Shown piece after piece: positions 7,255 through 12,887 of a stretch of 42,800 nucleotides of DNA. Source of the DNA: an uncultured Bacilli bacterium. Its GTDB lineage: Bacteria > Bacillota_I > Bacilli_A > RF39 > UBA660. Both the position numbers and the translations under genes were made by a program. Under the pieces are notes generated by a model. The model was not told the origin of the DNA. It ran no database searches and was given only the letters and a program-made list of their open reading frames with translations. Each line of letters starts with the position of its first letter. Within the stretch, counting starts at the first letter, position 1. The stretch lies in the NCBI GenBank assembly GCA_944358815.1, contig CALVRX010000014.1:1-42800 (forward strand). The letters are read 5' to 3'.

Positions 7255-8779
<1,525 letters not shown>

Positions 8780-8819: not shown

Positions 8820-8848
8820 TTGCTTTTTTAGAAAATATATGATATATT
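8820..8848 (+). promoter_or_regulatory. Predicted promoter of the structured RNA
   Basis: TTGCTT at 8820-8825 and TATATT at 8843-8848 with a 17-base spacer would start transcription near 8855, just before the first strong helix. Confidence 0.5.
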
Positions 8849-8854
8849 TAAATT

Positions 8855-9126
8855 GCTTAATAGGATGAGCTATATAAGCATTAATAGTTTTTAATTTATA
8901 TTGATTAAAAATTATTGATTTGTAAATTTATTAGAATTTACAATGCTTTAGCAAAGAATTATGATGTAAATGTAATTACTTTGTTTAAATGCCATCGTTT
9001 ATCAAGCTATTAAGTAATGTACGTACATGTGGAATCTTGATAATGCTATTAATGTATCTGTCAATATGTTAGTAGTAGTGAACCACAAAGAAATAAGCTA
9101 TTTGGCAGAATAGCTTGTTTTTTTTT
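8855..9126 (+). ncRNA. Candidate structured non-coding RNA, about 270 nt, ending in an intrinsic terminator
   Basis: This interval has no plausible reading frame but is dense in perfect helices. GCTA+AAGCATT (8869-8872, 8876-8882) pairs with AATGCTT+TAGC (8942-8952), enclosing two hairpins: 8883-8895 with 8904-8915 (13 pairs, one G-U) and GTAAATT 8922-8928 with AATTTAC 8935-8941. Together these make a closed three-way junction. A second domain has TTATCAAG 8999-9006 with CTTGATAA 9036-9043, enclosing ATGT-ACGT-ACAT at 9017-9028, and a long-range CTTTGT 8979-8984 with ACAAAG 9085-9090. It finishes with AAGCTATT 9095-9102 / AATAGCTT 9109-9116 and nine T. It lacks the signatures of 6S, tmRNA, RNase P or SRP RNA that I know. 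It could be a riboswitch-like leader or a free sRNA. Confidence 0.6.
9095..9126 (+). terminator. Terminator of the structured RNA
   Basis: AAGCTATT pairs with AATAGCTT around a six-base loop, followed by G and nine T. A second copy of the 5' arm, AAGCTATT at 9004-9011, could compete for the same 3' arm. Confidence 0.85.
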
Positions 9127-9237: not shown

Positions 9238-9555
9238 ATGAAAATAGTGAGAGATGGTGTTAAAAATGAAGAAAAGAAATTAAAAAAGTATTTTAATGAA
9301 AAAAATAATTATGAAAAAATTCTGATTCATATAAGGATGGTTAATAATTATCGGGAACTTTGTATGCATCCTTTTTCTATTATGTATGGTTTTGAAAAGT
9401 TAAAATATTTTGATGATGAATATTATAGTTTTAATTTAGGAAAAAAAGGTGGAGTTATTAGGCTGATTTTTAAAATTGATAAAGTTAATAATGCAGTTAT
9501 ATTAAAATTTATAAGTATGAGTCATTATGATGATTTCAAAAGAAAAAATGGATAA
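9238..9555 (+). CDS. RelE/HigB-like toxin
   Basis: A 105-residue basic protein with the layout of RelE/ParE-fold toxins: alternating Lys-rich helices at the N-terminus, then a beta-rich half (YYSFNLGKKGGVIRLIFKID) ending in ISMSHYDDFKR, a C-terminal pattern seen in HigB-type toxins that cut mRNA on the ribosome. Which residues are catalytic cannot be assigned by eye. ATG 9238 has GAGAGG upstream. The next gene, a DNA-binding antitoxin candidate, starts 13 bases after its stop, and toxin-first order is typical of HigBA pairs. Family assignment rests on pattern and context. Confidence 0.7.
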   Translation: MKIVRDGVKNEEKKLKKYFNEKNNYEKILIHIRMVNNYRELCMHPFSIMYGFEKLKYFDDEYYSFNLGKKGGVIRLIFKIDKVNNAVILKFISMSHYDDFKRKNG

Positions 9556-9568
9556 TGAGGTGAAGAAT

Positions 9569-10600
9569 ATGGCAAAAGTTAAATTTAAAGATTTATTAAA
9601 GGATTATTTGGAATATTCACATATTTCTAATAAAGAGTTTGCTTTAAGGCTAGGAATTACACCTAAGCATTTAATCGATATTTTATCTGGTAAACAAGGT
9701 TTGTCAGCGGAGATTATAGAAAAAATCAGTATGATTACAAATATTTCCATGGAATATATTTATAAAATGGAAGCGGATAGTTTTTTAGAGGATGATATTG
9801 AAAATTATTTAAAAGTTCATAAATTAACACCAGCTGAATATTTAAAAAAATGGGATTATAAATTTTTAATTAAGAGTAATTATATTGATTTTAGTGATAC
9901 AGAAAATAAAATGAATATAATTAAGGATATTGTACTTTATCTAAGAGTGCCTACAATCGAACAGGTTTACGAAATAGATAAAGGGGCTTATTATAAAAGT
10001 AAAAATGATAAACCTGAGTTACTTTTGTTATGGCTTGAAAAATGTTATAGGAAGATGATTGGTGAAAAGGTTTTAAAATATAAAAAAGAAAATGTTAATA
10101 TTTTAGTTGATTATATTTTGAATAGTGCGAAAAATAATAAATTTGAGGAAGAAAATTTAATTAAAGTATTTAATCAAAATGGAGTTTATTTAGTTATAGA
10201 AGATGATATTCCTGGTTCTAAAATAAGAGGGGCTTTTAAAGTTCATAAAGATGTGCCAGCTATTTATATAACTAGAAAATATAAAAGAATTGCGGATGTT
10301 TATTTTGCTTTATTACATGAGCTTGCTCATTTAAAGAGTGATTTTAATAGTGCGAAGGCTAAAAATTTTGTGTCTTTTGAAGATGATGTAGAAAATAAAG
10401 CAGATATAGTGGCTTATAATTGGATGGTTGATGATGAATATTATAATGGTGTTTGTAAAAAAGTAGATTATTATATAGAAAATGAAGATAAATTTCCTCG
10501 GAGTTTTGTTGTATATAGATTGGCTAAAGATGGTGTTATATCTTATAAAAGTAAAATATATCAAAAATATAATTTCCTTTTAGGAAAAAATAGTATATAA
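9569..10600 (+). CDS. HTH antitoxin/repressor with ImmA/IrrE-type metallopeptidase domain
   Basis: Residues about 1-70 are an XRE-type helix-turn-helix (NKEFALRLGITPKHLIDILSGK), likely the part that binds the upstream palindrome. The C-terminal half has the zinc-peptidase signature HELAH (H250, E251, H254) in YFALLHELAHLKSDF, with a downstream EDDVENKADIVAYNWMV helix providing the third ligand Glu, as in ImmA/IrrE (COG2856). The start is ATG 9569 with GAGGTGA upstream; the longer frame begins inside the toxin gene. Single-chain HTH-ImmA proteins act as HigA-like antitoxins or as stress-cleaved regulators. It is co-transcribed with the toxin. No terminator separates it from the next gene, a prepilin. 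Confidence 0.8.
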   Translation: MAKVKFKDLLKDYLEYSHISNKEFALRLGITPKHLIDILSGKQGLSAEIIEKISMITNISMEYIYKMEADSFLEDDIENYLKVHKLTPAEYLKKWDYKFLIKSNYIDFSDTENKMNIIKDIVLYLRVPTIEQVYEIDKGAYYKSKNDKPELLLLWLEKCYRKMIGEKVLKYKKENVNILVDYILNSAKNNKFEEENLIKVFNQNGVYLVIEDDIPGSKIRGAFKVHKDVPAIYITRKYKRIADVYFALLHELAHLKSDFNSAKAKNFVSFEDDVENKADIVAYNWMVDDEYYNGVCKKVDYYIENEDKFPRSFVVYRLAKDGVISYKSKIYQKYNFLLGKNSI

Positions 10601-11079: not shown

Positions 11080-11580
11080 ATGATTAATAAAAGAAGTTTA
11101 TGGTTTTTAACTTTATTTAGTTTGATTTTAGTACTGAGTGTTTATTATATTACGATGCCGAGTGAACTTTTAATGGCTACTAGTGGCGATGAAGAGGAGA
11201 CTCAAAAAGTTTCGGCAACGACGGAAAATGAAGAAAGTGCAGAGTTAGTAGCTTTAAGAGTAGAGTCTGAGGAAAAGATGCTTGATGAGATTACAGAGTT
11301 AAAGAAGGTACTAACGGATGCTAATTCAACTACAGAAGAAAAGAATGCAGCGTTTGATAAAATGCAAAAGTTAAATAAAAATCGAGGTACTGAAGAGTCA
11401 ATTGAGAATAAAATAAAAAATGAATTTAATTTGAAATCATTTGTCAGTATAGATGAAACTAGTGTTTCAGTGGTGATAGATAGTAAGAAACACGATAAGG
11501 AACTGGCTAATAAAATTATGAGGTCTGTACAAGAAGAATTTGAATCGCAAATAGCAATATCGGTTAAATTTCAAAAATAA
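11080..11580 (+). CDS. spoIIIAH: SpoIIIAH-like stage III sporulation protein
   Basis: 166 residues with one N-terminal membrane helix (LWFLTLFSLILVLSVYYIT), an acidic/coiled middle rich in Glu and Lys, and a C-terminal ring-building-motif-like domain (FNLKSFVSIDETSVSVVID ... ANKIMRSVQEEF). That arrangement is SpoIIIAH, the mother-cell half of the SpoIIQ-SpoIIIAH channel between mother cell and forespore. The usual spoIIIAA-AG genes do not precede it here, so it is separated from its normal operon. ATG 11080 has AGGAGGG nine bases upstream. Confidence 0.75.
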   Translation: MINKRSLWFLTLFSLILVLSVYYITMPSELLMATSGDEEETQKVSATTENEESAELVALRVESEEKMLDEITELKKVLTDANSTTEEKNAAFDKMQKLNKNRGTEESIENKIKNEFNLKSFVSIDETSVSVVIDSKKHDKELANKIMRSVQEEFESQIAISVKFQK

Positions 11581-11602
11581 CTTTCATATAGAAAGTTTTT
11601 TT
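11579..11602 (+). terminator. Terminator after spoIIIAH
   Basis: AACTTTC (11579-11585) pairs with GAAAGTT (11591-11597) around ATATA, followed by a T-run. Confidence 0.85.
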
Positions 11603-11616
11603 AGGCAGTTTTTTTC

Positions 11617-11643
11617 ACTTATATAGGTTTGGTGCATACAATA
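11617..11643 (+). promoter_or_regulatory. Candidate sigma-K promoter of gerE
   Basis: CATACAATA at 11635-11643 fits the sigma-K -10 pattern CATAnnnTA (and the related sigma-E CATACAnT). An AC dinucleotide, the sigma-K -35 core, lies at 11617-11618 with 16 bases between. In Bacillus subtilis gerE is sigma-K dependent, so the match is in the expected place, about 45 bases before the start codon. Confidence 0.5.
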
Positions 11644-11689
11644 ATATGAATAAATATAAACCATCCCGCCTTAGGAAAGTGAGGAAAAT

Positions 11690-11896
11690 ATGAAAAAGGG
11701 AATTTTAACGAAAAGAGAGCGTGAGATCTTTGAGTTGTTGATTCAAAATTATGGTACGAATGAGATTGCTGAAAAACTAAAAATAAGCGATAAAACAGTA
11801 AGAAATCATATTTCTAATGCGATGCAAAAATTAGGTGTCAAAGGTCGTGCGGGAGCTGTAATTGAGTTACTTAGGCTCGGTGAAATTTCATTATAG
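11690..11896 (+). CDS. gerE: GerE, late mother-cell transcription factor
   Basis: This 68-residue protein consists only of a LuxR/GerE-type helix-turn-helix: LTKREREIFELLIQNYGTNEIAEKLKISDKTVRNHISNAMQKLGV. Stand-alone domains of this size are GerE, the DNA-binding protein that tunes sigma-K genes for coat formation; B. subtilis GerE has 74 residues. Other short LuxR-type regulators cannot be excluded, but the neighbours SpoIIIAH and GerMN and the sigma-K-like promoter support GerE. AGTGAGG provides the ribosome binding site. Its stop overlaps a terminator. Confidence 0.8.
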   Translation: MKKGILTKREREIFELLIQNYGTNEIAEKLKISDKTVRNHISNAMQKLGVKGRAGAVIELLRLGEISL

Positions 11897-11918
11897 GTCA
11901 TATTCATGACCTATTTTT
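11893..11918 (+). terminator. Terminator of gerE, overlapping its stop
   Basis: ATAGGTCAT (11893-11901) pairs perfectly with ATGACCTAT (11906-11914) around a four-base loop, followed by T. Confidence 0.9.
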
Positions 11919-11942
11919 CATATCTTTAAAATGGGTGATGGT

Positions 11943-12887
11943 ATGCTTAAGAAATTATCGATAAGGAGGATTATTTTGTCTTCTTTGGCTCTTTTTGCGA
12001 TGTTTTTAATTTATATTATTCCAGCAAATAATAATAGTTTAAATATTAAGGAAGAGCTAGAATATGTTAATACAGATATTGAAAGTAGCCCAATATTTTT
12101 GATGGATAAAAATAGTTATGTGGCATTAACTAGTGTGGCAGTGAATGACGCTAGTATTGAAAATAAAGCTAGACAATTGATAAAGGTTTTAACTATTGGT
12201 GGTATGGACAGTAAGATACCTAGTGGTTTTAGTGCTATTATTCCGCCTAATACGGAAGTTTTAAGTTTAAGTTATGAAGATGGTTTAATTAAGGTGGATT
12301 TTTCTAAAGATTTACTCGATGTAGCGGAGGATTTGGAAGAAAAAATGGTTGAGGCAATAGTTTATACACTTACTTCAATTGATAAGGTGGATAGGGTTAT
12401 TATTTATGTAGAAGGTGATATATTAACTAAACTTCCGAAAACAAAGATTAATTTGCCTTCGACTTTAGATAAAACTTTTGGAATAAATAAGGAGTTTGAT
12501 TTAACTAGTACGAAGGATATTACAGATGTAACTATTTATTATATCAATCAGATAAGCGATAATTATTATTATGTACCGGTAACTAAGTATGTGAATGATT
12601 CGAGGGATAAGGCAAGCATTATTATCGATGAGCTTTCGGCAAATTTTGATTTTAATAAAAATTTAATGAGTTTTTTGAATGAGGGTACGCAACTGGTATC
12701 TAGTACAGTGAAAGATGGACAAATGCAACTTAATTTCAATGAAGATATTTTAAATAGTAGTGTGAGTGAAGAAATTTCTAAAGAAACTTTAGATACAATT
12801 TCTTTATCGATGGGGGCAAATTACGAAATTAAAGAAGTGGTTTTTAATGTTGGAGATAGGGAACTTTATAAAGTGGAAGTCAGATAA
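11943..12887 (+). CDS. gerM: GerM-domain (double GerMN) sporulation/germination protein
   Basis: The 314-residue protein has one N-terminal membrane helix (RRIILSSLALFAMFLIYII) and two similar extracytoplasmic domains of about 125 residues: one around IIPPNTEVLSLSYEDGLIKVDFSKDLLD and one around FLNEGTQLVSSTVKDGQMQLNFNEDIL. This pairing is the GerMN domain of GerM, which helps hold the SpoIIQ-SpoIIIAH channel in B. subtilis, consistent with spoIIIAH nearby. Unlike B. subtilis GerM there is no clear lipobox Cys after the hydrophobic stretch. ATG 11943 is preceded by GGTGAT; the ATG at 11931 is upstream of that site and less likely. Confidence 0.8.
   Translation: MLKKLSIRRIILSSLALFAMFLIYIIPANNNSLNIKEELEYVNTDIESSPIFLMDKNSYVALTSVAVNDASIENKARQLIKVLTIGGMDSKIPSGFSAIIPPNTEVLSLSYEDGLIKVDFSKDLLDVAEDLEEKMVEAIVYTLTSIDKVDRVIIYVEGDILTKLPKTKINLPSTLDKTFGINKEFDLTSTKDITDVTIYYINQISDNYYYVPVTKYVNDSRDKASIIIDELSANFDFNKNLMSFLNEGTQLVSSTVKDGQMQLNFNEDILNSSVSEEISKETLDTISLSMGANYEIKEVVFNVGDRELYKVEVR

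Follow-up and report, generated by a model that had tools for sequence, protein, structure and literature searches.

The DNA between lysS and a small ORF in an uncultured Bacilli genome holds a structured RNA of a family absent from Rfam, which occurs in uncultured gut Bacilli, in about 20 genera of one taxonomic family. Comparison of 65 distinct sequences suggests that it is a stand-alone, probably trans-acting, noncoding RNA that likely forms a homodimer through a palindrome. We put the probability of this reading at roughly 0.72; it rests on comparative evidence only, without transcript, structure-probing, or dimer data.

The RNA gene and its conserved core

The window is the whole 42,800-nt stretch of DNA analyzed, and all coordinates refer to it. 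The RNA follows lysS (7270-8766) and precedes a small ORF (9238-9555), and no ORF of ≥60 aa was found from the end of lysS (8766) to 9238. The features, all on the + strand, are as follows:

8820..8825, + strand: -35 element TTGCTT, with a 17-nt spacer to the -10; TTGA/TTGC at equal spacing in homologues
8840..8848, + strand: extended -10 element TGATATATT (TGnTAnnnT), nearly always ~8 nt ahead of the RNA start in homologues
8855..9126, + strand: RNA gene, transcript ~270 nt with predicted ends; homologues over its full length
8855..8863, + strand: P1, 5' strand GCTTAATAG, pairs with 9007-9015
8864..9000, + strand: variable 5' domain, including the three-way junction at 8869-8952; conserved only within sub-family A
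9001..9006, + strand: helix c, 5' strand ATCAAG, pairs with 9036-9041
9007..9015, + strand: P1, 3' strand CTATTAAGT, within the helix c loop (pseudoknot 1)
9017..9028, + strand: 12-nt palindrome ATGTACGTACAT, the proposed dimer helix; self-complementary in homologues except two odd-length variants, with covarying adjacent central bases
9029..9032, + strand: pseudoknot 2, 5' strand GTGG, pairs with 9083-9086; own-partner beats cross-partner pairing
9036..9041, + strand: helix c, 3' strand CTTGAT; covariation
9044..9077, + strand: hairpin e, two-sided changes in 12/13 pairs; loop carries CTGTCA (9058-9063)
9058..9063, + strand: kissing partner 1, CTGTCA, pairs with 9103-9108; covaries
9083..9086, + strand: pseudoknot 2, 3' strand CCAC; covariation and own-versus-cross pairing
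9091..9126, + strand: intrinsic terminator, present in the sequence; stem covaries and loop carries kissing partner 2, TGGCAG (9103-9108)

The segment 8855-9126 folds at -74.6 kcal/mol, compared with -48.2 ± 4.35 kcal/mol for dinucleotide shuffles (z = -6.1), and 0 of 200 shuffles folded as well. An earlier note, written from the sequence alone, had described a structured ~270-nt RNA with its own terminator in a region without a reading frame, and these claims held, the terminator being conserved. So did its promoter candidate, at the position it had given, and its statement that the RNA is not assignable to a known class. The three-way junction that it emphasized is real, since a bulged stem (GCTA/AAGCAT with ATGCTT/TAGC) closes two hairpins, both of which are found again in the type A alignment of the nearest homologues. 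The weight placed on it was nevertheless misplaced, as the junction lies in the fast-changing 5' domain, outside the conserved core. The pseudoknots, the palindrome, and a second copy in the same genome had been missed.

Comparative evidence shows that the copies are self-contained genes, with a sigma-A-type promoter (TTG-17-TGnTAnnnT), a start ~8 nt past the -10, and an intrinsic terminator, although no transcript has been measured. A CTTAATAG-like 5' motif follows the extended -10 at a fixed distance in 41 of the 42 first-set copies, with TTGA/TTGC 17 nt further upstream; the remaining copy is truncated by a contig end. Most second-set copies share this arrangement, which is unclear in L129 and L131; for L118 and the second copy of L117, the promoter view was cut by the limits of the examined stretch. 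Since its -35 fits the consensus at only three of six positions, the window promoter was absent from the list produced by a generic promoter scan; nearly all homologues are preceded by the same 17-nt spacing and extended -10. All copies finish with a terminator hairpin and U-tract.

The conserved part that defines the family comprises 8855-8863 and 9001-9126, i.e., the 5' end and the last ~125 nt. Its components, P1, helix c, the 12-nt palindrome, the GUGG/CCAC pseudoknot, hairpin e, and a kissing contact between the loops of that hairpin and the terminator, all show compensatory changes. At one pair of P1, 56 copies have C-G and 11 have G-C, with no mixed cases. Helix c appears in relatives as TTCAAG/CTTGAA, GCCAAA/TTTGGC, and ATCGT/ACGAT. 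The first pair of pseudoknot 2 is G-C in 23 and A-U in 13, and the helix also occurs as AUGGG/CCCAU, AUGAG/CUCAU, GCGG/CCGC, AAGUAC/GUACUU, and CAAGUA/UACUUG. The kissing contact CUGUCA/UGACAG is replaced by CUAUCA/UGAUAG, CUGAC/GUCAG, UUGUCA/UGACAA, or AUGUCGA/UCGACAU; comparative evidence shows the contact, but pairing within one molecule and pairing between two cannot be told apart in this way. Because the loop of hairpin e kisses that of the terminator, the terminator hairpin belongs to the fold. Similarly, since the palindrome and one strand of pseudoknot 2 also fall in the ~30-nt loop of helix c, nearly every base of that loop is paired. The 5' end, the helix c loop, pseudoknot 2, and the terminator contact are in this way shown, by comparison and without structure probing, to form a compact knot.

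The full model, pseudoknots included, was evaluated on 39 distinct sequences. Paired cells amounted to 93.4%, two-sided compensatory changes were present in 27 of 46 pairs, and compensated cells numbered 214, compared with 74 in shuffles. The covariation score was 0.372, versus 0.189 for shuffled and ≤0.108 for slid controls. The earlier note had held that a lack of covariation or a significant Rfam match would refute it, and neither occurred. The alignment was fitted to a model that held some of the tested helices, which favors those, but did not include the pseudoknot and kissing helices. For these, in 26 later-found sequences, pairing with the own partner beat pairing with partners from other sequences, with 1 of 5000 permutations for pseudoknot 2 and 3 of 5000 for the kissing contact. 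In the first set alone, the same test of the kissing contact was weaker (231/5000) because its sequence hardly varies there.

Distribution and neighboring genes

A DNA-level search of relatives with the window RNA recovered full-length or near-full-length copies (71-77% identity) from ten genomes of the genus and one 3'-half copy; many genomes also showed a second RNA matching only ~43 nt (window 9001-9043). A covariance model built on the 3' half (R1) was positive in 23 of 44 genus genomes; across the taxonomic family, a second model (R2) detected the RNA in 34 of 386 genomes, representing 19 of 150 genera. Scanning 84,980 species genomes for the core pattern yielded 32 stretches, nearly all from MAGs labeled uncultured Bacilli, Firmicutes, Mycoplasmatota, or Erysipelotrichaceae. 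One copy (L072) lies in a MAG labeled Ruminococcus sp., which may be misbinned. Class-wide and phylum-wide model searches of samples, which score only a few candidates per genome, gave no acceptable member outside the taxonomic family. Two matches from beyond it were discarded, L137 because it looks protein-coding (phoU-like by eye) and L136 because it lacks the pseudoknots. Weak opposite-strand matches beside the terminator (E ~1e-3) were the terminator hairpin read in reverse.

No copies were found in viral contigs by pattern scan or in phages and plasmids by blastn, and there is therefore no sign of a mobile element. Nothing convincing emerged when the 21 genus genomes lacking a match were searched with a looser model; since 21 of 44 have no detectable copy, the RNA is dispensable. 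The genomes compared are mostly incomplete MAGs. Carriers within the genus tend toward lower completeness scores, with only 3 of 14 genomes ≥90% complete carrying the RNA, and may represent a clade that lost marker genes.

Four sub-families were distinguished, whose neighboring genes (acpS-, desulfoferrodoxin-, mutL-, and cation-efflux-like) were named by eye from their sequences. Sub-family A lies beside acpS/ACP-like genes at 12 distinct loci, the next gene being acpS-like, convergent, and 48-68 nt away. Sub-family B precedes a desulfoferrodoxin-like gene on the same strand by 22-93 nt (14 distinct loci), three loci of sub-family C are near mutL-like genes, and sub-family D lies 42-50 nt before a co-directional cation-efflux-like gene. 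A conserved neighbor was sought as a possible partner, but different sub-families have no gene family in common in their neighborhoods. The window copy is of type A by sequence, yet its locus follows lysS. A distant relative from a distant genus (L132) occupies the same acpS-ACP locus as sub-family A although its sequence has diverged strongly, which suggests that the RNA was inherited vertically from long ago.

The window genome (G000) holds two RNA genes of the family. The second (L002; G000:C38:6076-6207, minus strand) is divergent, being one of those matched only over ~43 nt, and lies upstream of a desulfoferrodoxin-like gene. Type B copies (L002, L018, L027, and others) carry an extra conserved hairpin in the 5' domain, CUUACCUUAUAUGUGGAAG...UAGUAUAGGGGAAG, whose loop repeats the core motif AUGUGGAA. 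Two genomes have tandem pairs of the gene, L112 (1501-2021) and L117 (1501-2088), ~392 and ~457 nt apart.

In the window (9238-10600), the ORF that the earlier note had labeled a toxin (9238-9555) has no Pfam match. The next ORF encodes both an HTH_3 domain and a metal-protease-like motif, HELAHLKSDF, like proteins of the IrrE/ImmA type. Further on (11080-12887), genes for SpoIIIAH-like, GerE-like, and Germane-domain proteins form a sporulation/germination cluster; the genome is ~1 Mb. A link to sporulation through Spo0A proved uninformative, since most genomes have Spo0A whether or not they carry the RNA, and its presence does not track the RNA.

The palindrome and the proposed homodimer

Twelve-nucleotide palindromes are not rare in the window, where 21 occur by chance in the 42,800 bases, so the palindrome of the window copy by itself proves nothing and conservation is the evidence. 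Across homologues, the palindrome centers vary freely (ACGU, GUAC, GCGC, AAUU, GAUC, and CAUG among about ten) while self-complementarity is kept. Among the 38 first-set sequences without an insertion in the palindrome, complementarity holds for the next-to-central columns in all 38 (A-U 16, G-C 22); for the central pair of adjacent columns it holds in 36 (CG 19, UA 17), the exceptions being a wobble and a shifted palindrome. Shuffle means for these column pairs were 0.51 and 0.50, and none of 5000 shuffles reached the observed value of either. On a tree built without those columns, the central four bases changed at least 12 times. In the second set, 29 of 30 copies (26 of them new) had even-length palindromes, compared with 3-13% of shuffled segments, and new centers appeared (AATT, GATC, CATG, ATAT, TATA). 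Since the search model includes the four outer palindrome pairs and omits the central one, ascertainment bias could touch only the outer pairs.

Because adjacent central bases cannot pair within one hairpin, pairing between molecules is the simplest reading, and a symmetric RNA homodimer through the 12-nt palindrome is likely, although this is inferred from comparative sequence and no dimer has been measured. The energy of a 12-mer duplex lies at -12 to -15 kcal/mol, versus ~0 for most of the isolated hairpins. In the proposed mechanism, with the 5' end paired into the loop of helix c, two RNA molecules would join at the palindrome, as a self-complementary duplex or as a kissing loop extendable into a duplex. 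More weakly, we infer that the dimer may act as a protein-bound folded RNA, either scaffold or regulator, for which no partner or phenotype has been identified, and that the RNA would be neither an antisense RNA nor the leader of a single gene. Since the promoter is sigma-A-like, expression through most of growth may also be weakly inferred. In most genomes with two paralogues, including the window genome (ATATGTACATAT in L002 versus ATGTACGTACAT in the window copy), the palindrome centers differ, G032 being an exception; it is possible that each RNA pairs only with its own kind. A bolder reading, toward which we lean only slightly, is that this is a compact new class of natural homodimer, a multiply knotted RNA of ~270 nt with a freely evolving self-complementary palindrome.

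The most serious rival is that the same structured RNA acts as a monomer and the palindrome is merely a small hairpin of 3-4 bp with a loop of 3-4 nt. The outer palindrome pairs do covary as a hairpin would, and the variants with an unpaired central base, L009 and near relatives (GTAC-T-GTAC) and L131 (AGTG-T-CACT), can be explained by a hairpin with a 3-nt loop. Against this, the two innermost pairs are impossible in a hairpin and yet covary, with the counts and repeated tree changes given above, and their covariation was seen again in the second set; we therefore regard the monomer as unlikely. It is still less plausible that the palindrome is a DNA site, the target of a regulator or recombinase, inside an RNA gene that is otherwise ordinary. 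Dimeric DNA-binding proteins do typically recognize palindromes, but such a site keeps its sequence, whereas here only self-complementarity is kept through some ten centers.

A cis-acting leader, i.e., a riboswitch or attenuator of the next gene with the terminator as its switch, also appears very improbable. For sub-families B and D a cis role stays conceivable, since a gene on the same strand follows closely, and a co-directional ORF begins at 9238 downstream of the RNA gene in the window. In sub-family A, however, the next gene is convergent (12 distinct loci), the genes vary among sub-families, there was no sign of a conserved antiterminator, and the kissing contact ties the terminator into the fold. 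Finally, the order of RNA, terminator, and a small ORF termed a toxin in the earlier note could recall the RNA antitoxin of a type III (ToxIN-like) system. This can be all but ruled out: the tandem-repeat antitoxin is absent, with no repeat unit in the alignments, the adjoining ORF, after which an HTH protein is encoded, lacks a Pfam match, and other copies have different neighbors. The homodimeric, stand-alone RNA thus remains our preferred reading.

Comparison with known RNAs

Rfam gave no family at gathering score for the window copy, and relaxing the threshold to E ≤ 10 added only a microRNA match attributable to chance. Rfam 15 covariance models did not match the RNA in eight other loci, and a divergent member had nothing at gathering score (best E = 2). 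A small search of the open-access literature found no description of this RNA. 6S RNA is likewise a small stand-alone RNA, sometimes with two copies per genome in Bacillota; its model (RF00013) had no match in the region, and relatives carrying the new RNA have separate 6S genes (e.g., G002, G003, G004, G009, G012, and G014). The raiA motif, or ModT (RF03072), is a stand-alone ncRNA of Bacillota, ~200 nt long, that contains two pseudoknots and is conserved in the bacteria that carry it (PMC11706538). Its model was above cut-off in none of the 39 genomes around the window genome and did not match the region, and the new RNA differs from it in helix order and locus. The raiA motif is located between raiA and comFC, whereas the window copy is flanked by lysS and the HTH-linked small ORF, and other copies lie by acpS-, desulfoferrodoxin-, and mutL-like genes.

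Homodimerization, the likely mode of working of the new RNA, would be of a kind already known among RNAs. Functional RNA oligomers are rarely observed in nature (PMC7357161). Palindromic segments join two identical RNAs in crystals of the hatchet ribozyme and guanidine-II riboswitch (PMC7357161), and the coronavirus s2m forms an RNA dimer in the same manner (PMC12291111). These RNAs are unrelated to the new family, which keeps self-complementarity while its sequence changes. The bacterial structured ncRNAs OLE, ROOL, and GOLLD form RNA-only homo-oligomers (a dimer for OLE) through kissing loops and other contacts; covariation supports their intermolecular contacts, and their cellular function is largely open (PMC12286853). 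The new RNA would resemble them as an RNA-only homo-oligomer, predicted here from palindrome covariation only. It is unrelated to them, their Rfam models being absent among window matches up to E = 10, and smaller (~270-300 nt versus roughly 600 nt and more), and the contact proposed for its dimer is palindromic. Natural RNAs known as homo-oligomers are few, and the most familiar bacterial examples are large. If our reading is correct, the new family would add a small one with a plain contact open to test at the palindrome center, and its 65 distinct sequences and clear helices make it a good structural target.
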